From Chondrilla cf. caribensis (taxonomy: Eukaryota > Porifera > Demospongiae > Chondrillida > Chondrillidae), in assembly GCA_964020155.1 (NCBI GenBank), contig OZ026556.1:1-64000 (forward strand): 64,000 nucleotides of DNA, read 5' to 3'. Positions 1-37,995 of this stretch are shown here, piece after piece (the first letter of the stretch is position 1; every line of letters begins with the position of its first letter). Under the pieces are notes generated by a model that made no database searches, was not told the DNA's origin, and saw nothing but the letters and a program-made list of their open reading frames with translations. The translations under genes were made by a program, and so were the position numbers.

Positions 1-656
1 CCTAACCCTAACCCTAACCCTAACCCTAACCCTAACCCTAACCCTAACCCTAACCCTAACCCTAACCCTAACCCTAACCCTAACCCTAACTCTAACCCTA
101 ACCCTAACCCTAACCCTAACCCTAACCCTAACCCTAACCCTAACCCTAACCCTAACCCTAACCCTAACCCTAACCCTAACCCTAACCCTAACCCTAACCC
201 TAACCCTAACCCTAACCCTAACCCTAACCCTAACCCTAACCCTAACCCTAACCCTAACCCTAACCCTAACCCTAACCCTAACCCTAACCCTAACCCTAAC
301 CCTAACCCTAACCCTAACCCTAACCCTAACCCTAACCCTAACCCTAACCCTAACCCTAACCCTAACCCTAACCCTAACCCTAACCCTAACCCTAACCCTA
401 ACCCTAACCCTAACCCTAACCCTAACCCTAACCCTAACCCTAACCCTAACCCTAACCCTAACCCTAACCCTAACCCTAACCCTAACCCTAACCCTAACCC
501 TAACCCTAACCCTAACCCTAACCCTAACCCTAACCCTAACCCTAACCCTAACCCTAACCCTAACCCTAACCCTAACCCTAACCCTAACCCTAACCCTAAC
601 CCTAACCCTAACCCTAACCCTAACCCTAACCCTAACCCTAACCCTAACCCTAACCC
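1..656. repeat. Telomere, (CCCTAA)n
   Basis: About 109 tandem CCCTAA units read directly, with one visible variant (TCTAAC) near position 91. The C-rich strand runs 5' to 3' from base 1, which is the correct orientation for the left end of a chromosome, so the window begins at or inside a true telomere. The repeat is the TTAGGG type shared by most animals and some other eukaryotes. The last telomeric unit runs directly into the 51-bp satellite. Confidence 0.98.
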
Positions 657-15200: not shown

Positions 15201-18200
15201 TGACATTTTTTGGGCTTGTCACCACGAGGCTTATAGCGCACTCAGGACAATCAGAATGCTTACCAAATTGTGTTGGTGAGTTAGGCATGGACACTAGGTA
15301 GCCCTTGGTGACCAGAAAAGAAATCTCAAATTGCTTAGGTGATCACCCAAGGCGTAATACACTTATAATATATGAACGTACATACAAAGTATATACATTC
15401 TATTATATGTGGCACTGGGGGGAAATTTTGGTCGACATCAGAATGCATCCTTCTTGCTATCAGAAGGTAGCTACCAGGTCCAAGAGTGGGTCTGTGCATT
15501 TGGATTTGAGCTATGATGCATCACGTGCACACAGGAGAGGCCGTGGTGACAAGACCAAAAATTGACATTTTTTGGGCTTGTCACCACGAGGCTTATAGCG
15601 CACTCAGGACAATCAGAATGTTTGCGAAATTGTGTTGGTGAGTTAGGCATGGACACTAGGTAGCCCTTGGTGACCAGAAAAGAAATCTCAAATTGTTTAG
15701 GTGATCACCCAAGGCGTAATACACTTATATATGAATCTACATACAAAGTATATACATTGGCAATAGGGGGAAATTTTGGTCGACATCAAAATGCATCCTT
15801 TTTGCTATCAGAAGGTAGCTACCAGGTCCAGGAGTGTGTCTGTGCATTTGGATTTGAGCTATGATGCATCACGTGCACACAGGAGAGGCCGTGGTGACAA
15901 GACCAAAAATTGACATTTTTTGGGCTTGTCACCACGAGGCTTATAGCGCACTCAGGACAATCAGAATGTTTGCGAAATTGTGTTGGTGAGTTAGGCATGG
16001 ACACTAGGTAGCCCTTGGTGACCAGAAAAGAAATCTCAAATTGTTTAGGTGATCACCACAAGGCGTAATACAGTTATATATGAACGTACATACAAAGTAT
16101 ATAAATTCTATTATATGTGGCACTGGGGGGAAATTTTGGTCGACATCAAAATGCATCCTTCTTGCTATCAGAAGGTAGCTACTAGGTCCAGGAGTGGGTC
16201 TGTGCATTTGGATTTGAGCTATGATGCATCACGTTGACACAGGAGAGGCCGTGGTGACAAGACCAAAAATTGACATTTTTTGGGCTTGTCACCACGAGGC
16301 TTATAGCGCACTCAGGACAATCAGAATGCTTGCGAAATTGTGTTGGTGAGTTAGGCATGGACACTAGGTAGCCCTTGGTGACCAGAAAAGAAATCTCAAA
16401 TTGCTTAGGTGATCACCCAAGGCGTAATACATGCATATATGAATCTACATACAAAGTATATACATTGGCAATAGGGGGAAATTTTGGTCGACATCAAAAT
16501 GCATCCTTTTTGCTATCAGAAGGTAGCTACCAGGTCCAGGAGTGTGTCTGTGCATTTGAATTTGAGCTATGATGCATCACGTGCACACAGGAGAGGCCGT
16601 GGTGACAAGACCAAAAATTGACATTTTTTGGGCTTGTCACCACGAGGCTTATAGCGCACTCAGGACAATCAGAATGCTTACCAAATTGTGTTGGTGAGTT
16701 AGGCATGGACACTAGGTAGCCCTTGGTGACCAGCAAAGAAATTTCAAATTGCTTAGGTGATCACCACAAGGCGTATTACACGCATATATGAATGTACATA
16801 CAAAGTATATACATTCTATTATATGCGGCATTGGGGGGGGAAATTTTGGTCGACATCAAAATGCATCCTTTTTGCTATCAGAAGGTAGCTACCAGGTCCA
16901 GGAGTGTGTCTGTGCATTTGGATTTGAGCTATGATGCATCACGTGCACACAGGAGAGGCCGTGGTGACAAGACCAAAAATTGACATTTTTTGGGCTTGTC
17001 ACCACGAGGCTTATAGCGCACTCAGGACAATCAGAATGCTTACCAAATTGTGTTGGTGAGTTAGGCATGGACACTAGGTAGCCCTTGGTGACCAGAAAAG
17101 AAATCTCAAATTGCTTAGGTGATCACCACAAGGCGTATTACACGCATATATGAATGTACATACAAAGTATATGTGGCACTGGGGGGAAATTTTGGTCGAC
17201 ATCAAAATGCATCCTTCTTGCTATCAGAAGGTAGCTACCAGGTCCAGGAGTGTGTCTGTGCAATCGGATTTGAGCTATGATGCATCACGTGCACACAGGA
17301 GAGGCCGTGGTGACAAGACCAAAAATTGACATTTTTTGGGCTTGTCACCACGAGGCTTATAGCGCACTCAGGACAATCAGAATGCTTACCAAATTGTGTT
17401 GGTGAGTTAGGCATGGACACTAGGTAGCCCTTGGTGACCAGAAAAGAAATCTCAAATTGTTTAGGTGATCACCCAAGGCGTAATACATGCATATATGAAT
17501 CTACATACAAAGTATATACATTGGCAATATGGGGGAAATTTTGGTCGACATCAAAATGCAACTTTTTGCTATCAGAAGGTAGCTACCAGGTCCAGGAGTG
17601 TGTCTGTGCATTTTGATTTGAGCTATGATGCATCACGTGCACACAGGAGAGGCCGTGGTGACAAGACCAAAAATTGACATTTTTTGGGCTTGTCACCACG
17701 AGGCTTATAGCGCACTCAGGACAATCAGAATGCTTGCGAAATTGTGTTGGTGAGTTAGGCATGGACACTAGGTAGCCCTTGGTGACCAGAAAAGAAATCT
17801 CAAATTGCTTAGGTGATCACCACAAGGCGTATTACACGCATATATGAATGTACATACAAAGTATATACATTCTATTATATGTGGCACTGGGGGGGAAATT
17901 TTGGTCAACATCAAAATGCATCCTTTTTGCTATCAGAAGGTAGCTACCAGGTCCAGGAGTGTGTCTGTGCATTTGGATTTCAGCTATGATGCATCACGTG
18001 CACACAGGAGAGGCCGTGGTGACAAGACCAAAAATTGACATTTTTTGGGCTTGTCACCACGAGGCTTATAGCGCACTCAGGACAATCAGAATGCTTACCA
18101 AATTGTGTTGGTGAGTTAGGCATGGACACTAGGTAGCCCTTGGTGACCAGAAAAGAAATCTCAAATTGCTTAGGTGATCACCACAAGGCGTATTACACGC

Positions 18201-20848
18201 ATATATGAATGTACATACAAAGTATATGTGGCACTGGGGGGAAATTTTGGTCGACATCAAAATGCAACTTTTTGCTATCAGAAGGTAGCTACCAGGTCCA
18301 GGAGTGTGTCTGTGCAATCGGATTTGAGCTATGATTCATCACGTGCACACAGGAGAGGCCGTGGTGACAAGACCAAAAATTGACATTTTTTGGGCTTGTC
18401 ACCACGAGGCTTATAGCGCACTCAGGACAATCAGAATGCTTGCGAAATTGTGTTGGTGAGTTAGGCATGGACACTAGGTAGCCCTTGGTGACCAGAAAAG
18501 AAATCTCAAATTGCTTAGGTGATCACCACAAGGCGTATTACACGCATATATGAATGTACATACAAAGTATATACATTCTATTATATGTGGCACTGGGGGG
18601 AAATTTGGTCGACATCAAAATGCATCCTTTTTGCTATCAGAAGGTAGCTACCAGGTCCAGGAGTGTGTCTGTGCAATCGGATTTGAGCTATGATGCATCA
18701 CGTGCACACAGGAGAGGCCGTGGTGACAAGACCAAAAATTGACATTTTTTGGGCTTGTCACCACGAGGCTTATAGCGCACTCAGGACAATCAGAATGCTT
18801 GCGAAATTGTGTTGGTGAGTTAGGCATGGACACTAGGTAGCCCTTGGTGACCAGAAAAGAAATCTCAAATTGCTTAGGTGATCACCACAAGGCGTAATAC
18901 ACGCATATATGAATCTACATACAAAGTATATACATTGGCAATAGGGGGAAATTTTGGTCGACACCAAAATGCATCCTTTTTGCTATCAGAAGGTAGCTAC
19001 CAGGTCCAGGAGTGTGTCTGTGCATTTGGATTTGAGCTATGATGCATCACGTGCACACAGGAGAGGCCGTGGTGACAAGACCAAAAATTGACATTTTTTG
19101 GGCTTGTCACCACGAGGCTTATAGCGCACTCAGGACAATCAGAATGCTTACCAAATTGTGTTGGTGAGTTAGGCATGGACACTAGGTAGCCCTTGGTGAC
19201 CAGAAAAGAAATCTCAAATTGCTTAGGTGATCACCACAAGGCGTATTACACGCATATATGAATGTACATACAAAGTATATGTGGCACTGGGGGGAAATTT
19301 TGGTCGACATCAAAATGCATCCTTCTTGCTATCAGAAGGTAGCTACCAGGTCCAGGAGTGTGTCTGTGCAATCGGATTTGAGCTATGATGCATCACGTGC
19401 ACACAGGAGAGGCCGTGGTGACAAGACCAAAAATTGACATTTTTTGGGCTTGTCACCACGAGGCTTATAGCGCACTCAGGACAATCAGAATGCTTGCGAA
19501 ATTGTGTTGGTGAGTTAGGCATGGACACTAGGTAGCCCTTGGTGACCAGAAAAGAAATCTCAAATTGCTTAGGTGATCACCACAAGGCGTATTACACGCA
19601 TATATGAATGTACATACAAAGTATATACATTCTATTATATGTGGCACTGGGGGGAAATTTGGTTGACATCAAAATGCATCCTTTTTGCTATCAGAAGGTA
19701 GCTACCAGGTCCAGGAGTGTGTCTGTGCAATCGGATTTGAGCTATGATGCATCACGTGCACACAGGAGAGGCCGTGGTGACAAGACCAAAAATTGACATT
19801 TTTTGGGCTTGTCACCACGACGCTTATAGCGCACTCAGGACAATCAGAATGCTTGCGAAATTGTGTTGGTGAGTTAGGCATGGACACTAGGTAGCCCTTG
19901 GTGACCAGAAAAGAAATCTCAAATTGCTTAGGTGATCACCACAAGGCGTATTACACGCATATATGAATGTACATACAAAGTATATACATTCTATTATATG
20001 TGGCACTGGGGGGAAATTTGGTCGACATCAAAATGCATCCTTTTTGCTATCAGAAGGTAGCTACCAGGTCCAGGAGTGTGTCTGTGCATTTGGATTTGAG
20101 CTATGATGCATCACGTGCACACAGGAGAGGCCGTGGTGACAAGACCAAAAATTGACATTTTTTGGGCTTGTCACCACGAGACTTATAGCGCACTCAGGAC
20201 AATCAGAATTCTTGCGAAATTGTGTTGGTGAGTTAGGCATGGACACTAGGTAGCCCTTGGTGACCAGAAAAGAAATCTCAAATTGCTTAGGTGATCACCC
20301 AAGGCGTAATACACGCATATATGAATCTACATACAAAGTATATACATTGGCAATAGGGGGAAATTTTGGTCGACATCAAAATGCAACTTTTTGCTATCAG
20401 AAGGTAGCTACTAGGTCCAGGAGTGTGTCTGTGCATTTGGATTTGAGCTATGATGCATCACGTGCACACAGGAGAGGCCGTGGTGACAAGACCAAAAATT
20501 GACATTTTTTGGGCTTGTCACCACGAGGCTTATAGCGCACTCAGGACAATCAGAATGCTTACCAAATTGTGTTGGTGAGTTAGGCATGGACACTAGGTAG
20601 CCCTTGGTGACCAGAAAAGAAATCTCAAATTGCTTAGGTGATCACCCAAGGCATAATAAACTTATATATGAATCTACATTCAAAGTATATACATTGGCAA
20701 TAGGGGGAAATTTTGGTTGACATCAAAATGCATCCTTTTTGCTATCAGAAGGTAACTACCAGGTCCAGGAGTGTGTCTGTGCAATAGGATTTGAGCTATG
20801 ATGCATCATGTGCACACAGGAGAGGCCGTGGTGACAACTCCAAAAATT
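6206..20848. repeat. Sat1: ~350-bp satellite array, ~41 units
   Basis: A unit of about 347-360 bases repeats head to tail roughly 41 times, judged from recurrences of a TTAGGCATGGACACTAGG marker between 6480 and 20600. Units fall into two length classes, about 348 and 359 bases. They differ in one internal segment that reads either GGCAATAGGGGG or CTATTATATGTGGCACTGGGG. Every unit carries a perfect GGTGATCACC palindrome, a TGATGCATCA palindrome, and a long hairpin with 12-base arms CGTGGTGACAAG and CTTGTCACCACG closing on a TGAC loop. Short open frames recur in each unit on both strands but match no family I know. They shift and break between units, so I do not call genes. Confidence 0.96.
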
Positions 20849-22510
20849 ACATACATGGAAAAAATATTAAGCACCTTCCAATGTAGTTGGGGTTACGGGT
20901 CACCTATTGAGATGGGAATTGTTTCAGAAGTTAGTTCACGTCCCTAGCTAGGTCTGTCTAAAATATCAAGTTGACATGTTTTCTCTCTCACGAGCTATGA
21001 AAAAAGGTGCTCAGCGTTTTCTCTCCTATACTCACGCCCCCTCCCCCATGACCTTGTCACCTATTGAGATGAGAATTGTTTCAGAAGTTAGTTCACGTCC
21101 CCAGCTAGGTCTGTCTGAAATATCAAGTTGACATGCCCCCTCTCTCATGAGCTATGCAGAAAGGTGCTTAGCGTTTTATCTCCTATACTCTCCCATACAT
21201 TAAAAAAGTATTAAGCACCTTCCAATGTAACTGGGGTTAAAGGTCACCTATTGAGATGAGAATTGTTTCAGAAGTTAGTTCACGTCCCTAGCTAGGTCTG
21301 TCTAAATTATCAAGTTGACACGCCCCCTCCCCATTAGCTATGCAGATAGGTGCTTAGCGTTTTATCTCCTATACTCTCCCATACATTGAAAAAATAATAA
21401 AGCACCTTCCAATGTAGTTGGAGTTACGGGTCACCTATTGAGATGGGAATTGTTTCAGAAGTTAGTTCACATCCCCAGCTAGGTCTGTCTGAAATATTAA
21501 GTTGACTAGTCCCCTCCCCCATGAGCTATGCAAAAATGTGCTAAGCGTTTTATCTCCTATACTCTCCCATACATTGAAAAAATATTAAGCACCTTCCAAT
21601 GTAGTTGGAGTTACGGGTCACCTATTGAGATGGGAATTGTTTCAGAAGTTAGTTCACGTCCCTAGCTAGGTCTGTCTGAAATATCAAGTTGACACGCCCC
21701 CTCCCCCATGAACTATGCAAAAAGGTGCTTAGCATTTTTCTCTCCTATACTCTCCCATACATTGAAAAAATATTAAACACCTTCCAATGTAGTTGGAGTT
21801 ACGGGTCACCTATTGAGATGGGAATTGTTTCAGAAGTTAGTTCACGTCCCCAGCTAGGTCTGTCTGAAATATCAAGTTGACACGCCCCCTCCCCCATGAG
21901 CTATGCAAAAAGGTGCTTAGCGTTTTCTCTCCTATACTCTCCCATACATTGAAAAAATATTAAGCACCTTCCAATGTAGTTGGGGTTACGGGTCACTTAT
22001 TGAGATGGGAATTGTTTCAGAAGTTAGTTCACGTCCCTAGCTAGGTCTGTCTGAAATATCAAGTTGACACGCCCCCTCTCTCATGAGCTATGAAAAAAGG
22101 TGCTTAGCGTTTTATCTCCTATACTCTCCCATACATTGAAAAAAAATATTAAGCACCTTCCAATGTAACTGGGGTTAAGGGTCACCTATTGAGATGGGAA
22201 TTGTTTCAGAAGTTAGTTCACATCCCTAGCTAGGTGTGTCTAAAATATCAAGTTGACACGCCCCCTCTCTCATGAGCTATGAAAAAAAGTGCTTAGCGTT
22301 TTCTCTCCTATACTCTCCCATACATTGAAAAAAAAAATAAACACCTTCCAATGTAGTTGGAGTTACGGGTCACCTATTGAGATGGGAATTGTTTCAAACG
22401 TTAGTTCACATCCCCAGCTAGGTCTGTCTGAAATATCAAGTTGACACGCCCCCTCCCCCATGAGCTATGCAAAAAGGTGCTTAGCGTTTTATCTCCTATA
22501 CTCTCCCATA
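20849..22510. repeat. Sat2: ~186-bp satellite array A, 9 units
   Basis: Nine copies of a unit of about 186-190 bases (the first shortened to about 156). The landmarks are CACCTATTGAGATG, AGCTAGGTCTGTCT, a C-rich CGCCCCCTCCCCCATGAG stretch and TCTCCCATACATTG. Copies differ by scattered substitutions and small indels, so this array is older or less homogenised than the 51-bp satellite. It begins exactly at the loop of the Sat1 hairpin and ends in a TACAC overlap with Sat1. Confidence 0.93.
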
Positions 22511-22965
22511 CACGCATATATGAATGTACATACAAAGTATATACTTTCTATTATATGTGGCACTGGGGGGGACTTTGGTCGTCATCAAAATGCATCCTTT
22601 TTGCTATCAGAAGGTAGCTACTAGGTCCAGGAGTGTGTCTGTACATTCGGATTTGAGCTATGATGCATCACGTGCACACACGAGAGGCTGTGGTGACAAC
22701 TCAAAAAATTGACATTTTTTGGCTTGTCACCACGAGACGTATAGCGCACTCAGGACAATCAGAATGTTTCCGAAATTGTGTTGGTGAGTTTGGCATGGAC
22801 ACTGGGTAGCCCTTGGTGACCAGCCAAGAAATCTCAAATTGCTTAGGTGATCACCACATGTGGCATATGGGCACTGGGGGAATTTTTGGTCGACATCAAA
22901 ATGCATCTTTTTTGTTATCAGAAGGACTGTACTAGGTCAAGGAGTGTGTCTGTGCATTCGTATTT
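22511..22965. repeat. Sat1 fragment (~1.3 degenerate units)
   Basis: The sequence resumes Sat1 at its GCATATATGAATG segment, runs through one diverged unit, then has a deletion near 22855-22865 (GATCACCACATGTGGCATATGG) that removes part of the next unit. It ends where the cysteine-synthase first-exon remnant begins. Confidence 0.85.
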
Positions 22966-22991
22966 CTCAAAGTTTCTGAGAAGATGGCCCT
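22966..22991 (-). pseudogene. First-exon remnant of cysteine-synthase-like copy D
   Basis: Aligned by eye with the first exon of the full-length copy (start codon at 36704), this is the same MAVFS-encoding start region on the minus strand. Here the ATG has become AGG. The body of the gene, expected at lower coordinates, is absent and Sat1/Sat2 arrays lie there instead. The promoter-side sequence at 22992-24320 is intact and nearly identical to the other copies. Confidence 0.6.
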
Positions 22992-24900
22992 GCTGGTGTC
23001 AGAAGGAAAGGGGGTCACTTACACCTATGACACCAGTGGGAATTACAAAATGGCATGTGCCGGTTGACGAGATATGTACCTAAATACCTGACCCATCGTA
23101 GTATAATGCGGTGTGCTAGATTTGGTATACATAATATAACTTATTGTGTTGACATTGTGATAATAGATTATTGTAAAACAGGTACTGGCAATAGTTCTAT
23201 TTTGATGTGTGTGTTTGCAGTGCTACACAGAACTATTAATTTTGCATGTGGAGGTCTGTCTTGTTTCCCACCAGAACAAGTGGTACTCTGAGAGCAGATG
23301 TAATACTTGAGTATGATAATCACAGTGGATCACATAATGATGTACTCACTGGTTACTACCGGTCATGTCCAGTATCTTGTCATGAATGATCTTCACTACT
23401 TCAAAACTGAACACAAAGCAAGTGAACATATTCTATCAGTTAATATACCTCAACCCATACCCTACACAACCACACCTCGAAGATGCAATTTGGTAATATC
23501 TTCTCTTTGGAGAGGAATACTGCTATGTCCCTTACAGTGTTCGCGCATTCTCCGACGAAGTTTCTATCACAGGAAAGCAATAATGCACATACAGTCTGGA
23601 ATACAGGAAACTTGACATACCCTCGGGTTTTATAGTATTAAAAACAGAAGACTTTGTAAAGCTCCCTTGCCGTAGCTACGAGCTACGTAGCTCCACCATC
23701 TTCGAGTATATTCGAATGTAGGAAATACTGCAGCATCATATAATATGCATTCCTACGCGTAACCACTACAGTGAATTTATATTATTTCTATTGTGCGAAC
23801 AAAATGGCCGATTTCAAAACGCCGACAATTAGGATTTGGGCTAGAATTTGAGCGCAAAGACTTCAACGAGCTTTAAATCTTCACCGAAGGTTCTTCTAAA
23901 CCTATTAGAGACGATCAAGTGATTCGAGTGCCTGTGGGTGGCCTATTCTCCGAATTGAACATTGAGGGCAACTTTAAATAGCGCAGATAATAACAATAAA
24001 ATAGATAGGTCACGGTGGCGGGGTGGTCAGGTGACACGACTCTAGGCTCCAGGTCGCGGGTTCGAATCCTCAAAAGGACGGTTTTTTTCTCTGAAAAAAA
24101 ATAGCTCACTTCCTGGTGGTCAGTCGCATACTCTCTACAAAGAACCGTAGGGGGGAGCTTTGGGACTCGCGGCTGACCTCCCAGCTAGAATAGTGTCTTC
24201 TGCATTCGTGGAATGACGCAAGTACACAGTATCTGTGGAAAGTCCCTGTAAAGCTCTCCATATATAGGTGTCTTTGACCCTGAGTGGGTGACTTTTTTAT
24301 TAATTACAATTTCTTCATTTCATTAATGTGATCATTATAATACAGTATTTTGATACTTGAACAAATTATGGACAACATAAGGTTGGAAAGAGTGAAAGCT
24401 ATTGCTACACCCACATACTACCATTTTAACTAATATTTATTATGTAATTATGTGTTTATTTTAATTGTCAATAACGAGTATCTTTGGCCTAAATAAGTAT
24501 ACCCAACTTAACCTAAGTGACAGTCGATTAGAACAGAGGGAATGGGTATTTCCTGTGAATGTGTAAAAGGGGTGGGTCCTGTATTGATGTTACGGCGTTA
24601 AAATCAAGATGCTGATTGTCCCACATGTAGTTAAATTTGATATTAATTTTTACAAAGCCAAAAGGTTTCAAAATGAAAGTATGTCAGTCACCTTTATCAG
24701 TTTGGAACACTTACGTATGTTTGCAAAAATTTCAATTGAGGAATAATATGACTGAATCAACTTTTTACATTTTATTAATAAGTAGAATGGTAAATTCAAA
24801 AGTTCTCAATTCTTGTTACTGTCAATGCAAAGAACTGTGATATTTCTCTGGAAGTGTTTGGAGAAGACCTGCAGGAAGGCAAGAGCAGAGCATTCACATT
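22992..24900 (-). repeat. Duplicated promoter/intergenic block, copy D
   Basis: About 1.9 kb that recurs nearly base for base at 32842-34698, with shorter versions at 29993-31391 and 36890-37885. Relative to the minus-strand cysteine-synthase-like genes it is 5' flank (to about 24320) plus the intergenic stretch before the last exon of the next copy. A 102-residue plus-strand frame (23307-23615) is kept in most copies, but it resembles nothing I know and lies in the promoter region, so I do not call it a gene. A tRNA-like Pol III unit sits inside at 24008-24088. Confidence 0.85.
24008..24088 (+). mobile_element. tRNA-Leu(UAG)-derived SINE head, copy 1
   Basis: The sequence contains a perfect B-box (GGTTCGAATCC) preceded by an A-box-like TGGCGGGGTGGTCAGG, and it ends in a run of seven T, a Pol III terminator. 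The anticodon-arm stretch CTAGGCTCCAG closely matches the same region of animal tRNA-Leu(UAG) as I remember it. The long variable arm is missing and the T-stem pairs only partly, so a functional tRNA is unlikely. A tRNA-derived SINE or tRNA pseudogene fits better. The element has been copied with the surrounding duplicated block rather than by four separate insertions. Confidence 0.6.
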
Positions 24901-25072
24901 TTACATACCAGCTACAGGTATGCACCTAGTGACCCTCTCACTTCGGTCCTTCAATACTGTCCTACTAAACAGTTTGGAGAAGTACCTCTGGAGAGTTAAA
25001 AATATATTCACATCGATTTGACTATTTCAGTGCACACTGCTGACCTGTCCTGAATCACACAAGCAAGTGACA

Positions 25073-28000
25073 TCAAAATGCATCCTTTCTGCTATCAGAA
25101 GGTAGCTAGCAGGTACAGGAGTGTGTCTGTGCACTCGGATTGGAGCTATGATGCATCACGTCCACAAAGGAGAGGCCGTGGTGACAACTCAAAAAATTGA
25201 CATTCTTTGGCTTGTCACCACGAGGCTTATAGCGCACTCAGGACAATCAGAATGCTTACCAAATTGTGTTGGTGAGTTAGGCATGGACACTAGGTAGCCC
25301 TTGGTGACCAGCAAAGAAATCTCAAATTGATTAGTGATCACCCAAGGCGTAATACACTTATATATGAATCTACATTCAAAGTATATACATTGGCAATAGG
25401 GGGAAATTTTGGTCGACATCAAAATGCAACTTTTTGCTATCAGAAGGTAGCTACCAGGTCCAGGAGTGTGTCTGTGCATTTTGATTTGAGCTATGATGCA
25501 TCACGTGCACACAGGAGAGGCCGTGGTGACAAGACCAAAAATTGACATTTTTTGGGCTTGTCACCACGAGGCTTATAACGCACTCAGGACAATCAGAATG
25601 CTTGCGAAATTGTGTTGGTGAGTTTAGTATGGACACTGGGTAGCCCTTGGTGAACAGAAAAGAAATCTCAAATTGCTTAGGTGATCACCACAAGGCGTAT
25701 CACATTTACATATGAATGTACATACAAAGTATATACATTCTATTATATGTGGCACTGGGGGGAAATTTTGGTCGACATCAAAATGCAACTTTTTGCTATC
25801 AGAAGGTAGCTACCAGGTCCAGGAGTGTGTTTGTGCATTTGGATTTGAGCTATGATGCATCACGTGCACACAGGAGAGGCCGTGGTGACAAGACCAAAAA
25901 TTGACATTTTTTGGGCTTGTCACCACGAGGCTTATAGCGCACTCAGGACAATCAGAATGCTTACCAAATTGTGTTGGTGAGTTAGGCATGGACACTAGGT
26001 AGCCCTTGGTGACCAGCAAAGAAATCTCAAATTGCTTAGGTGATCACCACAAGGCGTAATACACTTATATATGAATCTACATACAAAGTATATGCATTGG
26101 CAAAAGGGGGAAATTTTGGTCGACATCAAAATGCATCCTTTTTGCTATCAGAAGGTAGCTACCAGGTCCAGGAGTGTGTTTGTGCATTTGGATTTGAGCT
26201 ATGATGCATCACGTGCACACAGGAGAGGCCGTGGTGACAAGACCAAAAATTGACATTTTTTGGGCTTGTCACCACGAGGCTTATAGCGCACTCAGGACAA
26301 TCAGAATGCTTGCGAAATTGTGTTGGTGAGTTAGGCATGGACACTAGGTAGCCCTTGGTGACCAGAAAAGAAATCTCAAATTGCTTAGGTGATCACCCAA
26401 GACGTAATACATGCATATATGAATCTACATACAAAGTATGTACATTGGCAATAGGGGGAAATTTTGGTCGATATCAAAATGCATCTTTTTTGCTATCAGA
26501 AGGTAGCTACCAGGTTCAGGAGTGTGTCTGTGCATTTGGATTTGAGCTATGATGCATCACGTGCACACAGGAGAGGCCGTGGTGACAAGACCAAAAATTG
26601 ACATTTTTTGGGCTTGTCACCACGAGGCTTATAGCGCACTCAGGACAATCAGAATGCTTACCAAATTGTGTTGGTGAGTTAGGCATGGACACTAGGTAGC
26701 CCTTGGTGACCAGCAAAGAAATCTCAAATTGCTTAGGTGATCACCACAAGGCGTAATACACTTATATATGAATCTACATACAAAGTATATGCATTGGCAA
26801 AAGGGGGAAATTTTGGTCGACATCAAAATGCAACTTTTTGCTATCAGAAGGTAGCTACCAGGTCCAGGAGTGTGTCTGTGCATTTGGATTTCAGCTATGA
26901 TGCATCACGTGCACACAGGAGAGGCCGTGGTGACAAGACCAAAAATTGACATTTTTTGGGCTTGTCACCACGAGGCTTATAGTGCACTCAGGACAATCAG
27001 AATGCTTGCGAAATTGTGTTGGTGAGTTAGGCATGGACACTAGGTAGCCCTTGGTGACCAGCAAAGAGATCTCAAATTGCTTAGGTGATCACCACAAGGC
27101 GTATTACACGCATATATGAATGTACATACAAAGTATGTACATTCTATTATATGTGGCACTGGGGGGAAATTTTGGTCAATATCAAAATGCATCCTTTTTG
27201 CTATCAGAAGGTAGCTACTAGGTCCAGGAGTGTGTCTGTGAATTCAGATTTCAGCTATGATGCATCACGTGCACACAGGAGAGGCCGTGGTGACAACTCA
27301 AAAAATTGACATTTTTTGGCTTGTCACCACGAGGCTCATAGCGCACTCAGGACAATCAGAATGCTTACGAAATTGTGTTGGTGAGTTAGGCATGGACACT
27401 AGGTAGCCCTTGGTGACCAGAAAAGAAATCTCAAATTGCTTAGGTGATCACCACAAGGCGTATTACACGCATATATGAATGTACATACAAAGTATATACA
27501 TTCTATTATATGTGGCACCGGGGGGGAAATTTTGGTTGACATCAAAATGCATCCTTTTTGCTATCAGAAGGTAGCTACCAGGTCCAGGAGTGTGTCTGTG
27601 CATTTGGATTTGAGCTATGATGCATCACGTGCATACAGGAGAGGCCGTGGTGACAACTTAAAAAATTGACATCTTTTGGCTTGTCACCACAAGGCTTATA
27701 GCGCACTCAGGACAATCAGAATGCTTACGAAATTGTGTTGGAGAGTTTGGTATGGATACTAGGTAGCCCTTGGTGACCAGAAAAGAAATCTCAAATTGCT
27801 TAGGTGATCACCACAAGGCGTATTATACACATATATGAATGTACATACACAGTATATACATTCTATTATATGTGGCACTAGGGGGAAATTTTGGTCCACA
27901 TCAAAATGCATCCTTTTTGCTATCAGAAGGTAGCTACCAGGTCCAGGAGTGTGTCTGTGAATTCGGATTTGAGCTATGATGCATCATGTGCACACAGGAG

Positions 28001-28152
28001 AGGCCATGGTGACAACTCAAAAAAATTGACATTTTTTGGCTTGTCACCACGAGGCTTATAGCGCACTCAGGACAATCAGAATGCTTACGAAATTGTGTTG
28101 GTGAGTTAGGCATGGACACTAGGTAGCCCTTGGTGACCAGACAAGAAATCGT
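25073..28152. repeat. Sat1 array inside copy C (~9 units)
   Basis: Nine recurrences of the Sat1 marker between 25276 and 28110, with both length classes present. The distal units (27300 onward) are more diverged and carry an ACTCAAAAAATTGAC variant of the hairpin arm. The array begins inside exon 12 of a cysteine-synthase-like copy. Confidence 0.93.
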
Positions 28153-29615
28153 TACTCGATACTCTCCATACATTGAAAAAATTGAAAAAATATTAAGCAC
28201 CTTCCAATGTAACTGGGGTTAAGGGTCACCTATTGAGATGGGAATTGTTTCAGAAGTTAGTTCACGTCCCTGCCTAGATCTGTCTGAAATATCAAGTTGA
28301 CACACCCCCTCTCTCATGAGCTATGAAAAAAGGTGCTTAGCATTTTCTCTCCTATACTCTCCCATACATTGAAAAAATATTAAGCACCTTCCAATGTAGC
28401 TGAGGTTACGGGTCACCTATTGAGATGGGAATTGTTTCAGAAGTTAGCACACATCCCCAGCTAGGTCTGTCTGAAATATCAAGTTGACACGCCCCCTCCC
28501 CCATGAGTTATGCAAAAAGGTGCTTAGCATTTTATCTCCTATACTCTCCCATACATTGACAAAATATTAAGCACCTAATGTAGCTGGGGTTACGGGTCAC
28601 CTATTGAAATGGAAATTGTTTCAGAAATTAGCTCACATCCCCAGCTAGGTCTGTCTAAATTATCAAGTAGACACGCCCCCTCCCCCATGAACTATGCAAA
28701 ATGGTGCTTAGCATTTTATCTCCTATACTCTCCCATACATTGAAAAAATATTAAGCACCTTCCAATGTAACTGGAGTTAAGGGTCACCTATTGAGATGGG
28801 AATTGTTTCAGAAGTTAGTTCACATCCCCAGCTAGGTCTGTCTGAAATATCAAGTTGACACGCCCCCTCCCCCATGAGTTATGCAAAAAGGTGCTTAGCG
28901 TTTTCTCTCCTATACTCTCCCATACATTGACAAAATATTAAGCACCTAATGTAGCTGGGGTTACGGGTCACCTATTGAAATGGAAATTGTTTCAGACGTT
29001 AGTTCACGTCCCTGCCTAGGTCTGTCTGGAATATCAAGTTGACACGCCCCCTCCCCCATGAGCTATGAAAAAAGGTGCTTAGCGTTTTATCTCCTATACT
29101 CTCCCATACATTGAAAAAAAATATTAAGCACCTTCCAATGTAGTTGGAGTTACGGGTCACCTATTGAGATGGGAATTATTTCAGAAGTTAGTTCACGTCC
29201 TTAGCTAGGTCTGTCTAAATTATCAAGTTGACACGCCCCCTCCCCCATGAGCTATGCAAAAAGGTGCTTAGCATTTTCTCTCCTATACTCTCCCATACAT
29301 TGAAAAAATATTAAACACCTTCCAATGTAGCTGGGGTTAAGGGTCGCCTATTGAGATGGGAATTGTTTCAGTAGTTAGCTCACATCCCCAGCTAGGTCTG
29401 TCTAAAATATCAAGTTGACACGCCCCCTCCCCCATGAGCTATGCAAAAAGGTGCTTAGCGTTTTCTCTCCTATACTCATGCCCCCTCCCCCATGAGCTTG
29501 TCACCTATTGAGATGGGAATTGTTTCAGAAGTTAGTTCACGTCCCTAGCTAGGTCTGTCTAAAATATCAAGTTGACACGCCCCCTCCCCCATGAGCTATG
29601 CAAAAAGGTGCTTAG
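28153..29615. repeat. Sat2 array B, 8 units
   Basis: Eight copies of the ~186-base unit, two of them shortened near GCACCTAATGTAGC. They are similar in sequence and orientation to array A. The array is flanked on both sides by Sat1, and the distal junction shares AGG between the two satellites. Confidence 0.93.
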
Positions 29616-29955
29616 GTCCAGGAGTGTGTCTGTGCATTTGGATTTCAGCTTAGATGCATCACGTGCACACAGGAGAGGCTGTGGTGACAACTCAAAAAAT
29701 TGACATTTTTTGGCTTGTCACCACGAGGCTTATAGCGCACTCAGGACAATCAGAATGTTTCCGAAATTGTGTTGGAGAGTTTGGCATGGACACTGGGTAG
29801 CCCTTGGTGACCAGCCAAGAAATCTCAAATTGCTTAGGTGATCACCACATGTGGCATATGGGCACTGGGGGAATTTTTGGTCGACATCAAAATGCATCTT
29901 TTTTGTTATCAGAATGACTGTACTAGGTCAAGGAGTGTGTCTGTGCATTCGTATT
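29616..29955. repeat. Sat1 fragment next to copy C first exon
   Basis: About one Sat1 unit with the same internal deletion (GATCACCACATGTGGC) seen at 22855. It ends against the first-exon remnant of copy C. The shared deletion shows that this junction was copied together with the promoter block. Confidence 0.85.
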
Positions 29956-29992
29956 TCTCAAACTTTCTGAGAAGACAGCCATGCTGGTGTCA

Positions 29993-31391
29993 GAGGGAAA
30001 GGGGGTCACTTACACCTATGACACCAGTGGGAAATACAAAATGGCATGTGCCGGTCGACAAGATACGTACCTAAATACCTGACCCATTGTAGTATAATGC
30101 GGTGTGCTAGATTTGGTATACATAATATAACTTATTGTGTTGACATTGTGATAATAGATTATTGTAAAACAGGTACTGGCAATAGTTCTATTTTGATGTG
30201 TGTGTTTGCAGTGCTACACAGAACTATTAATTTTGCATGTGGAGGTCTGTCTTGTTTCCCACCAGAACAAGTGGTACTCTGAGAGCAGATGTAATACTTG
30301 AGTATGATAATCACTGTGGATCACATAATGATGTACTCACTGGTTACTACCGGTCATGTCCAGTATCTTGTCATGAATGATCTTCACTACTTCAAAACTG
30401 AACACAAAGCAAGTGAACATATTCTATCAGTTAATATACCTCAACCCATACCCTACACAACCACACCTCGAAGATGCAATTTGGTAATATCTTCTCTTTG
30501 CAGAGGAATACTGCTATGTCCCTTACAGTGTTCGCGCATTCTCCGACGAAGTTTCTATCACAGGAAAGCAATAATGCACATACAGTCTGGAATACAGGAA
30601 ACTTGACATACCCTCGGGTTTTATAGTATTAAAAACAGAAGACTTTGTAAAGCTCCCTTGCCGTAGCTACGAGCTACGTAGCTCCACCATCTTCGAGTAT
30701 ATTCGAATGTAGGAAATACTGCAGCATCATATAATATGCATTCCTACGCGTAACCACTACAGTGAATTTATATTATTTCTATTGTGCGAACAAAATGGCC
30801 GATTTCAAAACGCCGACAATTAGGATTTGGGCTAGAATTTGAGCGCAAAGACTTCAACGAGCTTTAAATCTTCACCGAAGGTTCTTCTAAACCTATTAGA
30901 GACGATCAAGTGATTCGAGTGCCTGTGGGTGGCCTATTCTCCGAATTGAACATTGAGGGCAACTTTAAATAGCGCAGATAATAATAATAAAATAGATAAG
31001 TCACGGTGGCGGGGTGGTCAGGTGACACGACTCTAGGCTCCAGGTCGCGGGTTCGAATCCTCAAAAGGACGGTTTTTTTCTCTGAAAAAAAATAGCTCAC
31101 TTCCTGGTGGTCAGTCGCATACTCTCTACAAAGAACCGTAGGGGGGAGCTTTGGGACTCGCGGCTGACCTCCCAGCTAGAATAGTGTCTTCTGCATTCGT
31201 GGAATGACCCAAGTACACAGTCTCTGTGGAAAGTCCCTGTAAAGCTCTGCATATATAGGTGTCTTTGACCCTGAGTGGGTGACTATTTTATTAATTACAA
31301 ATCCGACAATTTCTTCATTTCATTAATGTGATATTTCTCTGGAAGTGTTTGGAGAAGACCTGCAGGAAGGCAAGAGCAGAGCATTCACATT
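29993..31391 (-). repeat. Duplicated promoter block, copy C
   Basis: Near-identical to 22992-24320 and then joined directly to the last-exon region. About 510 bases present in copies B and D (24325-24836) are missing here. The breakpoint lies in TGTGAT, a six-base direct repeat that flanks the missing segment in the longer copies, consistent with a microhomology-mediated deletion. Confidence 0.85.
30999..31079 (+). mobile_element. tRNA-Leu(UAG)-derived SINE head, copy 2
   Basis: Same B-box, anticodon-like segment and T-run as the copy at 24008, with one substitution near the 5' end (AAGTCACGG). It is carried within the duplicated promoter block. Confidence 0.6.
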
Positions 31392-32841
31392 TTACATACC
31401 AACTACAGGTATGCACCTAGTGACCCCCTCACTTCGGTCCTTCAATACCGTCCTACTAAACAGTTTGGAGAAGTACCTCTGGAGAGTTAAAAATATATTC
31501 ACATCGATTTGACTATTTCAGTGCACACATTGACATTTTTTGGCTTGTCACCACGAGGCTTATAGCGCACTCAGGACAATCAGAATGCTTACCAAATTGT
31601 GTTGGTGAGTTAGGCATGGACACTGGGTAGTCCTTGGTGAACAGAAAAGAAATCTCAAATTGCTTAGGCGATCACCACAAGGCGTATTACACGCATATAT
31701 GAATGTACATACAAAGTATATACATTCTATTATATGTGGCACTGGGGGGAAATTTTGGTCGACATCAAAATGCAACTTTTTGCTATCAGAAGGTAGCTAC
31801 CAGGTCCAGGAGTGTGTCTGTGCATTTGGATTTGAGCTATGGTGCATCACGTGCACACAGGAGAGGCCGTGGTGACAAGACCAAAAATTGACATTTTTTG
31901 GGCTTGTCACCACGAGGCTTATAGCGCACTCAGGACAATCAGAATGCTTACCAAATTGTGTTGGTGAGTTAGGCATGGACACTAGGTAGCCCTTGGTGAC
32001 CAGCAAAGAAATCTCAAATTGCTTAGGTGATCACCCAAGGCGTAATACACTTATATACGAATCTACATTCAAAGTATATACATTGGCAATAGGGGGAAAT
32101 TTTGGTCGACATCAAAATGCAACTTTTTGCTATCAGAAGGTAGCTACCAGGTCCAGGAGTGTGTCTGTGCATTCGGATTTGGGCTATGATGCATCACGTG
32201 CATACAAAAGAGGCTGTGGTGACAACTCAAAAAATTGACATTTTTTGGGCTTGTCACCACGAGGCTTATAGCGCACTCAGGACATTCAGAATGCTTACAA
32301 AATTGTGTTGGTGAGTTTGGTATGGACACTGGGTAGCCCTTGGTGACCGGCCAAGAAATCTCAAATTGCTTAGGTGATCACTAAAGGCGTATTACATTTA
32401 TATATGAATGTACATATAAAGTATATACATTCTATTATATGTGGCACTGGGGGAAAATTTTGGTCGACATCAAAATGCATCTTTGTTGCTATCAGAAGGT
32501 AGCTACTAGGTCCAGGAGTGTGTCTGTGCATTTGGATTTGAGCTATAATGCATCACGTGCACACAGGAGAGGCCGTGGTGACAACTCAAAAAATTGACAT
32601 TTTTTGGCTTAACACCACCACGAGGCTTATAACGCACTCAGGACAATCAGAATGTTTCCGAAATTGTGTTGGAGAGTTTGGTATGGACACTGGCTATCCC
32701 TTGGTGACCAGTGTAGAATTCTCTAATTGCTTAGGGCACTGGGACATCAAAATACATCTTTATGTTATCAGAATGACTGTACTAGGTCAAGGAGTGTGTC
32801 TGTGCATTCGTATTTCTCAAACTTTCTGAGAAGACAGCCAT
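31392..32841 (-). pseudogene. Gutted cysteine-synthase-like gene, copy B
   Basis: Minus strand. The ATG is at 32841 (MAVFSESL, then satellite-derived sequence) and the intact last exon is at 31392-31478, ending VVGM-stop. The interior from 31529 to about 32812 is 3.6 Sat1 units. In the full-length copy the equivalent interval holds exons 1 (end) to 12, about 1.8 kb. The downstream junction joins intron-12 sequence (GTGCACAC) to the apex of the Sat1 hairpin (ATTGACATTTT). The replaced structure is the same as in copy C. Confidence 0.75.
31529..32812. repeat. Sat1 array inside copy B (~3.6 units)
   Basis: Sat1 units starting at the hairpin loop. The last units are diverged (for example AACACCACCACGAGG at 32610), and the array ends in a truncated unit before the first-exon remnant. 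Confidence 0.92.
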
Positions 32842-34698
32842 GCTGGTGTCAGAGGGAAAGGGGGTCACTGACACCTATGACACCAGTGGGAAATACAAAA
32901 TGGCGTGTGCCGGTCAACGAGATACTTACCTAAATACCTCACCCATTGTAGCATAATGCGGTGTGCTAGATTTGGTATACATAATATAACTTATTGTGTT
33001 GACATTGTGATAATAGATTATTGTAAAACAGGTACTGGCAATAGTTCTATTTTGATGTGTGTGTTTGCAGTGCTACACAGAACTATTAATTTTGCATGTG
33101 GAGGTCTGTCTTGTTTCCCACCAGAACAAGTGGTACTCTGAGAGCAGATGTAATACTTGAGTACGATAATCACAGTGGATCACATAATGATGTACTCACT
33201 GGTTACTACCGGTCATGTCCAGTATCTTGTCATGAATGATCTTCACTACTTCAAAACTGAACACAAAGCAAGTGAACATATTCTATCAGTTAATATACCT
33301 CAACCCATACCCTACACAACCACACCTCGAAGATGCAATTTGGTAATATCTTCTCTTTGCAGAGGAATACTGCTATGTCCCTTACAGTGTTCGCGCATTC
33401 TCCGACGAAGTTTCTATCACAGGAAAGCAATAATGCACATACAGTCTGGAATACAGGAAAACTTGACATACCCTCGGGTTTTATAGTATGAAACAGAAGA
33501 CTTTGTAAAGCTCCCTTGCCGTAACTTCGAGCTACGCAGCTCCACCATCTTCGAGTATATTCGAATGTAGGAAATACTACAACATCATATAATATGTATT
33601 CCTACGCGTAACCACTACAGTGAATTTATATTATTTCTATTGTGCGAACAAAATGGCCGATTTCAAAACGCCGACAATTAGGATTTGGGCTAGAATTTGA
33701 GCGCAAAGACTTCAACGAGCTTTAAATCTTCACCGAAGGTTCTTCTAAACCTATTAGAGACGATCAAGTGATTCGAGTGCCTGTGGGTGGCCTATTCTCC
33801 GAATTGAACATTGAGGGCAACTTTAAATAGCGCAGATAATAATAATAAAATAGATAGGTCACGGTGGCGGGGTGGTCAGGTGACACGACTCTAGGCTCCA
33901 GGTCGCGGGTTCGAATCCTCAATAGGACGGTTTTTTTCTCTGAAAAAAAATAGCTCACTTCCTGGTGGTCAGTCGCATACTCTCTACAAAGAACCGTAGG
34001 GGGGAGCTTTGGGACTCGCGGCTGACCTCCCAGCTAGAATAGTGTCTTCTGCATTCGTGGAATGACGCAAGTACACAGTCTCTGTGGAAAGTCCCTGTAA
34101 AGCTCTACATATATAGGTGTCTTTGACCCTGAGTGGGTGACTTTTTTATTAATTACAAATCCGACAATTTCTTCATTTCATTAATGTGATCATTATAATA
34201 CAGTATTTTGATACTTGAACAAATTATGGACAACATAAGGTTGGAAAGAGTGAAAGCTATTGCTACACCTACGTACTACTGCTTTAACTACCGTTTTAAG
34301 TTAACCCAACTTAACCTAAGTGACAGTCGATTAGAACAGAGGGAATGGGTATTTCCTGTGAATGTGTAAAAGGGATGGGTCCTGTATTGATGTTAAGGCA
34401 TTACAATCAAGATGTTGATTGTCCCACATGTAGTTGAATTTGACGTTTTACAAAGCCAAAAGGTTTCAAAATGAAAGTATGTCAGTCACCTTTATCAGTT
34501 TGGAACACTTACGTATGTTTGCAAGAATTTCAACTGTAGAATAATACGACTGAATCAACTTTCTGCATTTTATTAATAAGTAGAATGGTAAATTCAAAAG
34601 TTCTCAATTCTTATTACTGTCAATGCAAAGAACTGTGATATTTCTCTGGAAGTGTTTGGAGAAGACCTGCAGGAAGGCAAGAGCAGAGCATTCACATT
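32842..34698 (-). repeat. Duplicated promoter/intergenic block, copy B
   Basis: The longest version of the block. It is contiguous at its right end with the last exon of the full-length cysteine-synthase-like gene, so it shows the original gene-to-gene spacing in the tandem array. It carries the tRNA-like unit at 33857-33937. No independent gene was recognised. Confidence 0.85.
33857..33937 (+). mobile_element. tRNA-Leu(UAG)-derived SINE head, copy 3
   Basis: Identical in layout to the other copies; one base differs after the B-box (CAATAGG instead of CAAAAGG). It lies in the duplicated block. Confidence 0.6.
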
Positions 34699-35301
34699 TT
34701 ACATACCAGCTACAGGTATGCACCTAGTGACCCTCTCACCTCGGTCCTTCAATACTGTTTTACTAAACAGTTTGGAGAAGTACCTCTGGAGAGTTAAAAA
34801 TATGTTCACAACAATGCGACTACTTCAGTGGAGACTGCTGACCTGTCCTGAATCACACAAGCAAGTGACAATGGTCTTGCCAGGCCCCAATGTTCTTGCA
34901 ACCTATAAATTATGTGTGTGTGTTACCATGATACTAGCAAGGTGTAGACCATTAAGCAAACCTTAACAGCAGCAGCAACGTTCAGTCCAGATGATGCTCC
35001 CACAAAGAAACCTTCTTCATGGAGAATTCTAAATGTCTAAAAAGTGAAAACTACATGACTTTACAAATGAACAAATCAACTAATATTTTGCCACACACCA
35101 TTGTTACAGCCTCTTCATCAGATATCATAACAGCAGAATCTATAGGAGCACCAGATACATTGTTAGTCACTCTTCCCTGACCAATGCCTTCAGTAATTGA
35201 GGATCCTTCTGTTCTTTCCAGTTTACCATGAGAAAAGTAGTTGTAGAGTACACTTCCCTGAAATAATGCATCGCTTACACATTCACACATACACACACAC
35301 G

Positions 35302-35399
<98 letters not shown>

Positions 35400-36704
35400 A
35401 ACACGCACACACAAACACCACAACACCACAACAACACAGTCATGTTCACCTGAGGATCAGCAAGGACAACTTGCACTAGGGGATTCTTCTCTTTCAGGAA
35501 CAGACCAACACCTACCAATGGATACTTGATATATGGAATTCCTTTGTAGATATGTGAAGTACAAACCAGCAAGCGTTCCACCCGTTCCTGTTCAAAAAGT
35601 AACAGCATCAACTCTGCCATCTACAATTGATGGCAATATCACGATCACATACGTACATATGCCCATACCATTATACACACATGCATACTTGTTTGCCTCC
35701 AGATTTCAGGGCCTGTAGTCTCATAATGAGCTAGTCTGTTAGCTGTATTGTCAAACTATTTGGTCCAAACTGCATTTGAAAGAGAACTTGCAAATCTTTT
35801 GGCCTGCATAGAGTAGCATACTTTGACATCAAGACATCATTTTCAGAGATTATACTACTCATATTAACAAATTCACTAACTATGTGGTTGTAGTTTTCTG
35901 GGTTATCATAAGGGACAGCTGGTACTGGTCTAACGTCTGCTCCTAGGACACGTAGAGCATCTATTTTTTCCTGTATACAGTAAACAATGCATTCAGCCAC
36001 AAAGGAGTCGTAACCCAGTGATGTTGACGAACCTGGGATTGTGTGTCTGGCATAAAAATCACACATTGATAGCCAATAGCATTGCATAGATGTGCCAAAC
36101 CAATTCCTATGCACAGCAGAAGATCGGTTTGAGATATGTAACAACATATAACCCTAGCGTCGACAATACAAGAAAACGAACGCATAACAAACCAGACCTG
36201 TGTTGCCTGCTGTCCCTTCCACTATGGTCCCACCGGGCCTCACCAAACCTATCCAATTAATTTTGGAACAATAATACTGCATGGTTCAAACTTCGGTCAA
36301 TGTTTCTGACCTCTTTCTTCAGCGTCCTTGATGAGGTACAGAGCGGCCCTGTCCTTAACGGAACCACCAGGGTTTAGCTGCTCCGCCTTAACAAGATTAT
36401 TACATGACGTCTCTTCGCTTACACCCTTTAACCTCACTAAAGGAGTACTACAGGATATGAAAAGGCATCCATAAATTTCAGCCAGAAAACACTTGAATAC
36501 TCAAAGCACCCTCACTTGCCAACCAATTCTTTAAAACCATCCACAACGTTCGAACTATAACAAAACTACAGAGAGAAAGATTATGTCATGATAACCAAGA
36601 CTTATGCCAACATCGATAGGGCTGGGACACACTCTACACAGCCGCCCCACCACACGGACTGCAAACCTTCTACCAGAGCTCAAACTTCTTGAGAAGACGG
36701 CCAT
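34699..36704 (-). pseudogene. Cysteine-synthase-like gene (PLP fold type II), two stops
   Basis: Thirteen exons fit in phase: 36633-36704, 36516-36565, 36311-36447, 36198-36248, 36033-36106, 35881-35970, 35689-35803, 35567-35620, 35450-35511, 35099-35257, 34962-35036, 34843-34902, 34699-34785 (361 codons). Family motifs are clear: [27 protein letters not shown] with the PLP lysine at about residue 72, GGTIVEGTAGNTG, TGTGGTLAG, the TEGSSITEGIGQGR loop and VTCLCDSGQ. The arginine-rich N-terminus (24 residues) looks like a mitochondrial presequence; its donor (GTGTGT) is the least certain junction. An intact protein would make cysteine from O-acetylserine or a similar beta-replacement. Two in-frame stops break it: TAG at 35756-35758 (codon 174, where the family has WTNQFDN) and TGA at 35592-35594 (codon 206). 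The splice sites look sound. It is a recent pseudogene unless these are sequencing errors. Confidence 0.85.
35280..35430. repeat. (AC)n microsatellite in an intron
   Basis: An imperfect AC tract inside the intron between exons 9 and 10 of the cysteine-synthase-like gene. The overlapping open frames on both strands are repeat artefacts. Confidence 0.95.
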
Positions 36705-36889
36705 GCTGGTGTCAGAGGGAAAGGGGGTCACCACACTGTCATAACATAGACAACACCCTACGACACACCACACCGGCATAACATAGACAACACCCTATGA
36801 TATACATTAGGGCAAGATAGGGTGAAGATTGATACATTAAGAGTGTACATAGAAAAAAATCTGCTACCTTTGCATGTTGTGTCCTGTCT
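36705..36889 (-). promoter_or_regulatory. Rearranged proximal 5' flank of the full-length copy
   Basis: Just upstream of the ATG the sequence departs from the other copies: after about 25 shared bases it contains two near-repeats of CATAACATAGACAACACCCTA. It rejoins the duplicated block at the TCTTGTTTCCCACC segment near 36890. About 250 bases present in the other copies are missing here, so the core promoter of this copy is altered. No TATA box is evident. Confidence 0.5.
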
Positions 36890-37885
36890 TGTTTCCCACC
36901 AGAACAAGTGGTACTCTGAGAGCAGATGTAATACTTGAGTATGATAATCACTGTGGATCACATAATGATGTACTCACTGGTTACTACCGGTCATGTCCAG
37001 TATCTTGTCATGAATGATCTTCACTACTTCAAAACTGAACACAAAGCAAGTGAACATATTAATTCTATCAGTTAATATACCTCAACCCATACCCTACACA
37101 ACCACACCTCGAAGATGCAATTTGGTAATATCTTCTCTTTGCAGAGGAATACTGCTATGTCCCTTACAGTGTTCGCGCATTCTCCGACGAAGTTTCTATC
37201 ACAGGAAAGCAATAATGCACATACAGTCTGGAATATAGGAAAACTTTACATACCCTCGGGTTTTATAGTATGAAACAGAAGACTTTGTAAAGCTCCTTTG
37301 CGGTAGCTACGAACTACCCACGTAGCTCCACCATCTTCGAGTACATTCGAATTTAATATGCATTCCTACGCGTAAGTGCGAACAAAATGGCCGATTTCAA
37401 AATGCCGACAATTAGGATTTGGGCTAGAATTTGAGCGCAAAGACTTCAACGAACTTTAAATCTTCACCGAAGGTTCTTCTAAACCTATTAGAGACGATCA
37501 AGTGATTCGAGTGCCTGGGGGTGGCCTATTCTCCGAATTGAACATTGAGGGCAACTTTAAATAGCGCAGATAATAACAATAAAATAGATAGGTCACGGTG
37601 GCGGGGTGGTCAGGTGACACGACTCTAGGCTCCAGGTCGCGGGTTCGAATCCTCAAAAGGACGGTTTTTTTCTCTGAAAAAAAATAGCTCACTTCCTGGT
37701 GGTCAGTCGCATACTCTCTACAAAGAACCGTAGGGGGGAGCTTTGGGACTCGCGGCTGACCTCCCAGCTAGAATAGTGTCTTCTGCATTCGTGGAATGAC
37801 GCAAGTACACAGTCTCTGTGGAAAGTCCCTGTAAAGCTCTCCATATGTAGGTGTCTTTGACCCTGAGTGGGTGACTTTTTTATTA
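36890..37885 (-). repeat. Duplicated promoter block, copy A
   Basis: The fourth copy of the block, lying 5' of the full-length gene and ending at the GGGTGACTTTTTTATTAAT boundary shared by all copies. It is somewhat more diverged, with small deletions near 37350. Sequence beyond 37886 is not shared with the other copies, so this is the outer edge of the tandem array. Confidence 0.85.
37591..37671 (+). mobile_element. tRNA-Leu(UAG)-derived SINE head, copy 4
   Basis: The same sequence as copy 1, within the outermost promoter block. Confidence 0.6.
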
Positions 37886-37995
37886 ATATGAATCCTATAT
37901 ACAATTCTTGCTTTATTTCTTTCATTTTATTGCAATCATTTACTTTCTACTTACAATAAAACAGATTACTACGACAAGTACAATATTAATGAGTA

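Follow-up and report, generated by a model that had tools for sequence, protein, structure and literature searches.

Nearly all chromosome ends of Chondrilla cf. caribensis carry the same interrupted gene. A tandem unit, made up of a spacer with Rheb exons, a promoter, a 13-exon cysteine synthase gene and a tail, lies near nearly all of the ends and is directed toward the telomere, and at nearly all ends a copy of this unit breaks off at one base of exon 1 and continues as satellite DNA. The window analysed here (64,000 nucleotides that form the left end of contig C11, a contig of 5.34 Mb in a surveyed assembly of 137 Mb and 37 contigs) is the usual chromosome-end structure of this genome, seen at one end. 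The comparisons described below suggest that this structure probably goes back to one ancestral cap in exon 1 that was copied across the ends, with hollow genes arising as stacked caps and with satellite being swapped inside a frozen boundary.

Gene fragments alternate with satellite at the left end of contig C11

From the tip inward, the window consists of telomere, a 51-bp repeat, Sat1, Sat2, Sat1, three blocks of gene parts split by satellite and a gene that still bears its body (Table 1). The 51-bp repeat is also present at several other contig ends, and was not found at the right end of C5, which was read continuously to telomere repeats. Two minor observations concern the repeats themselves: the letters of the 51-bp repeat (654-5663) are telomere-like, and each Sat1 monomer contains an inverted repeat of ~46 bases (for example, 31868-31914).

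Table 1. Features along the window, from the chromosome tip inward
Feature	Positions	Strand
Telomeric repeat (CCCTAA)n, chromosome end	1..656	
T51, 51-bp telomere-associated tandem repeat, ~98 near-identical units	654..5663	
Sat1 cap array, new 348-bp variant, ~41 units	6266..20852	
Sat2 array, 187-bp unit	20850..22512	
Sat1 piece up to the junction, with the old Sat1 variant in its final 73 bases	22516..22965	
Block D: tail, spacer, promoter and start of exon 1 (ATG changed to AGG); outermost cap boundary here	22966..24900	-
Last exon (E13) of hollow copy C	24901..24987	-
Exon 12 remnant of copy C, at the satellite/gene join (form b)	25047..25072	-
Satellite interior of copy C: Sat1, Sat2, Sat1	25069..29956	
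Promoter/exon 1 side of copy C and spacer, as far as the last exon of B	29957..31391	-
Last exon (E13) of hollow copy B	31392..31478	-
Satellite interior of copy B (Sat1); edge of old variant at 32743-32815	31529..32815	
Promoter/exon 1 side of copy B, spacer and tail, as far as the last exon of A	32816..34698	-
Copy A: cysteine synthase gene of 13 exons, interrupted by two in-frame stops	34699..36704	-
Spacer upstream of A, with Rheb-type GTPase exon sequence (first of two exons, 37033-36971)	36869..37887	-

The original prediction, made from this DNA alone, held that in each block the promoter and start codon of one copy are joined to the final exon of its neighbour, and both self-alignment and exon homology bear this out. 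Self-alignment pairs 22622-24332 with 29613-31332 (97.8%), the latter with 32507-34190 (95.2%), 24494-25072 with 34297-34870 (94.1%) and 24836-25037 with 31327-31528 (98.5%). The prediction had been staked on the homology of 24901-24987 and 31392-31478 to the last exon at 34785-34699, and this homology was found (97% and 94%, respectively, with a 101-base probe). The interiors are indeed satellite, with Sat1 in copy B and Sat1 (25069-28150), Sat2 (28181-29615) and Sat1 (29614-29956) in copy C, and the start codon is kept as ATG in B and C, in contrast to the AGG of D. The predicted replacement of the exons in between needs a correction for copy C, which retains ~25 bases of exon 12; the 3′ break lies inside exon 12 in copy C and in intron 12 in copy B. 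Two further claims had to be given up: block D is not a gene copy with only its promoter side left but the usual cap boundary, and the layout is not particular to this array, because the exon 1 junction is found at 47 of the 50 placed ends. What lies between two such boundaries is a ‘hollow gene’ or a variant of one.

The interrupted gene is a cysteine synthase

Copy A, on the minus strand, was modelled as 13 exons and 352 positions (the 3′ end of exon 1 being our choice in the splice model) and reads as cysteine synthase. A 164-residue piece of it matches the PALP family (Pfam PF00291) with an E value of 1.8e-36, named relatives of the L005 protein include animal cysteine synthases, and we take the lysine of the SVKDR stretch to be the PLP site. 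This body-bearing copy has two in-frame stops (TAG at 35758-35756 and TGA at 35594-35592), does not form an open reading frame and is itself a pseudogene. Eight body-bearing copies were compared, A and seven others, several of them covered in part; two, at the right end of C21 and at an interstitial site on C8, have an open frame in every exon sampled, exon 13 having been covered in part or not at all. In the copy at the right end of C8, the codon that carries the first stop of A is likewise a stop. We also considered a retrocopy and rejected this idea: the strongest PALP match in the genome, C16:5032130, reads by eye as another enzyme, serine racemase or threonine dehydratase, and therefore provided no cDNA of this gene.

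One exon 1 junction recurs at nearly every chromosome end

A 35-base pattern across the exon 1/satellite junction has 98 matches in the genome (≤3 mismatches), while the reversed control has none, which excludes chance for the junction; the pattern itself makes these matches alike, and on their own they are no proof of a single origin. A pattern for the uncut exon 1 region has 33 matches (control, 0). The junction matches, the uncut matches and 34 of the 48 PALP matches were placed on contigs C1-C25. By this placement, 79 junctions are within 100 kb of an end, 17 are interstitial and 2 are on small contigs. The 47 ends with a junction have it as the outermost of the markers searched in every case (47/47), and at 23 ends more than one junction is present. 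Every one of the 141 terminal markers is oriented toward the telomere, some genes giving two markers. The three other placed ends are the left end of C24, which lacks the junction and has a body marker alone, 2.9 kb from the contig start, and the right ends of C6 and C24, which have none of the markers searched. Contig C26 (27.5 kb), which bears a junction close to one of its ends and the 51-bp repeat close to the opposite one, may be a missing, unplaced chromosome end.

Eleven of the 17 interstitial junctions keep the polarity of their arm, a proportion that counts against one cap copied across the ends. As a separate observation, 29 of 38 interstitial satellite clusters, among the matches listed, have the orientation of the chromosome end closer to them, and these clusters look as if they were derived from chromosome ends.

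Blocks are exchanged between chromosome ends

The copying of blocks between ends is well supported by their similarity. Sixteen sampled blocks are 96.5-98.7% identical (four interstitial copies were dropped from this comparison for length), and their grouping crosses chromosomes: block D of the window groups with the right end of C1 (0.837) and block B with the left end of C10 (0.971), although several support values in the grouping are low. The claim that the copies spread by recombination therefore stands. Some blocks instead group by end, which counts against copying across ends, as seen for all three blocks at the right end of C5 (0.736) and three of the five at the right end of C2 (0.928). 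Sequence adjoining the 51-bp repeat is shared by the left end of C11 and the right ends of C4 and C1, and a shorter stretch of it also by the right end of C3. With a near-identical block on many non-homologous ends, in the same orientation to the telomere and exchanged across ends, the structure qualifies as a subtelomeric duplicon. We infer that the agent was break-induced replication or ectopic crossing-over.

An old satellite edge is retained at the junction

Sat1 occurs in two variants. The interstitial arrays at C10, C13 and C16 consist of an old 359-bp variant, with a consensus that agrees with that of the new 348-bp variant in 300 of the 361 columns aligned. Directly after the exon 1 junction, the initial 73 bases of satellite are closer to the old variant at all 20 edges sampled (90-97% identity, versus 79-88% to the new), of which 3 lie inside the loci that gave the old consensus and 17 outside. 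By contrast with these edges, 206 of the 213 monomers scored at eight sampled ends are the new variant, with the qualification that the new consensus was derived from the left end of C11 and the 41 new calls there are partly circular; the remaining 7 monomers (5 old, 2 mixed) are each the first or second unit after a junction. The classification of array edges covers gene-side edges, and there the older variant is at the edge and the newer in the core, the pattern of a layered expansion. At an interstitial site on C21, the first unit is old and the next four are new. Genome-wide, pattern matches (≤2 mismatches) number 280 for the old variant, edges included, and 1808 for the new, and deletions just past the edge are common to groups of ends. 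Since old edges adjoin new arrays, the break was most likely capped before new satellite took the place of old.

Gene-to-satellite joins are uniform and satellite-to-gene joins are diverse

We read six ends continuously, the left end of C11 and the right ends of C1, C2, C3, C4 and C5; telomere repeats were reached at C11, C1, C4 and C5, while C3 ends in the 51-bp repeat and C2 was read to a point short of its tip. Gene-to-satellite joins in these ends are the exon 1 junction in 14 of 15 cases. The exception, at the right end of C4, is the outermost join there, from spacer to Sat2 on the telomere side of its exon 1 junction, such that the exon 1 junction is truly the outermost join in 4 of the 5 ends read to the tip. 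A second odd join, from spacer to satellite, occurs at the interstitial site on C10. Both odd joins count against a single cap as the source of every boundary. The 11 satellite-to-gene joins in the six ends take six forms (a, four times; f, three times; b, c, g and h, once each). In form f, which occurs at the right ends of C2 and C5, the satellite passes into a flank that contains a TG repeat.

We propose that once, when the old satellite prevailed, a break in exon 1 was capped by satellite DNA, and that the capped end would then have been copied onto other ends via ectopic recombination or break-induced replication. Further caps, starting variously in the unit or in its upstream flank, would have joined into existing satellite and so produced the stacked, hollow-gene appearance, and two of these satellite-to-gene joins, forms a and f, may have been copied on in turn. 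Unequal exchange would have swapped old satellite for new and left the exon-anchored edge behind, while the gene bodies were presumably lost or are passively decaying.

A single double event is a possible alternative, which we consider unlikely: the interior between exon 1 and exon 12 would have been swapped for satellite at once, the hollow gene copied and trimmed, and the caps formed by exchange within satellite. Such an event would agree with the frequency of form a, the pattern of which is found at 29 places in the genome (control, 0) and which accounts for 22 of 27 sampled joins of satellite to last exon; this sample is biased toward last-exon joins, as 20 pieces were picked from the list after removal of likely intact genes and joins without the last-exon motif went uncounted. 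In addition, forms b and d end at the same satellite base, forms a, b2 and d can be read from their sequences as short deletions from b, and both joins of the interstitial site on C10 lie in old satellite. Form a, however, makes up 4 of the 11 joins in the continuous reads, and none of forms f, g and h has its point of entry in exon 12 or can be derived from b by simple trimming. We favour an order in which the cap came first and the stacking later because of the odd outermost join at the right end of C4 and the six satellite-to-gene forms, although the interstitial site on C10, in old satellite, already has both an exon 1 and an intron 12 join, which counts against this order.

The original prediction instead had satellite repeatedly invading gene interiors. 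The several satellite-to-gene forms and the two odd gene-to-satellite joins are what such invasion might produce, and on that side of the satellite the prediction is right that joining happened repeatedly (11 joins, six forms). On the exon 1 side it fails, as 14 of the 15 joins are identical to the base, and the same old edge is present at 20 of 20 junctions; we thus regard repeated invasion as very unlikely.

The promoter side of the boundary

That every terminal marker is directed to the telomere could also mean that the boundaries were kept since a telomere-pointing promoter drives the synthesis of satellite or telomeric RNA, and divergence is indeed low in parts of the block (0.003-0.014 at -1240 to -1000 and 0.008 at -280 to -200, versus 0.061 at -680). 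However, the orientation already follows from the block copying of ends, gene conversion likewise reduces divergence, the 120 bases that adjoin the junction belong to the more diverged parts (0.046-0.048), and the promoters in the window are ~22-32 kb from the telomere repeat. We therefore give this explanation little credence, and judge it highly improbable that the captured promoter of a metabolic gene would be the common source of satellite or telomeric RNA at nearly every end and would for that reason have fixed the exon 1 boundary.

An assembly artefact of collapsed or chimeric repeats is hardly credible: repeat-rich ends are prone to error, and the right end of C1 continues for ~1 kb of other sequence beyond the final stretch of telomere repeats (contamination or a misjoin may be the cause), but the junction recurs at 98 places, and the 20 copies sampled differ in their flanks and carry private changes.

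Relation to known chromosome-end structures

With one ancestral cap copied across the ends as the preferred reading, the structure is a form of subtelomeric exchange in which the satellite is layered much as in centromeres, and by published descriptions it combines features of the DDX11L and alpha satellite types with a fixed exon 1 boundary. Human DDX11L is described as a rearranged gene portion of single origin that was spread over many ends by subtelomere exchange (PMC2705379). Like DDX11L, the fragment found here has been propagated over chromosome ends; unlike it, as far as that description goes, the fragment ends in satellite at a fixed exon 1 base, at nearly all ends and with a fossil satellite edge (PMC2705379). 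DDX11L is moreover presented as a transcript family, whereas the present structure is known from genome sequence alone (PMC2705379). Human subtelomeric duplicons are described as blocks common to different ends in varied arrangements (PMC2323237); compared by description, the sharing between ends is the same, but here one boundary is present at nearly every end. In human centromeres, old divergent alpha satellite monomers are reported to flank a newer homogeneous core (PMC4496801). The older monomers at the array flank and the newer core are a likeness to the arrays described here, which differ from that account in being subtelomeric and one-sided, with an old layer that is often ~73 bp and anchored in an exon (PMC4496801). 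Khipu of common bean, a subtelomeric satellite with a long monomer (528 bp), similarly lies near chromosome ends, and its description mentions no gene-exon boundary (PMC3797529). At the level of titles and the starts of abstracts, we found no case of the present layout in the open-licence PMC literature.

Most chromosomes of this sponge thus share one scar at their ends, where satellite DNA cuts off a cysteine-making gene within exon 1. Through this single exon breakpoint, present at 47 of 50 placed ends, the copying of one end by another can be followed, and the trapped old edge points to satellite turnover that continued after the break was capped. The layers allow events to be ordered within one assembly (capping, escape to interstitial sites, stacking and satellite replacement), and end exchange and satellite turnover thereby become directly testable.

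The spacer and the neighbouring gene

The tandem unit is itself a mosaic. Its spacer contains two exons, the 34 joined residues of which match Rheb in PDB at 1.1e-10, while Pfam makes no family call on this 34-residue piece. The Rheb-type exon sequence is present in each unit of the window (37033-36971, with copies at 33255-33196, 30396-30334 and 23405-23346), and the first Rheb exon has 113 matches in the genome among the matches listed. The parent Rheb gene was not found among the 150 of 225 candidates scored, which matched the first exon and were spacer or spacer-like copies alone. A tRNA-like stretch at ~33880-33960 (plus strand), with a B-box-like GGTTCGAATCC, is by eye perhaps a SINE; ARAGORN and Rfam call no tRNA in the spacer. 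Beside the array, at 39453-40766 on the plus strand, a single frame encodes a protein of the tubulin-tyrosine-ligase family, whose nearest named relatives are from sponges.
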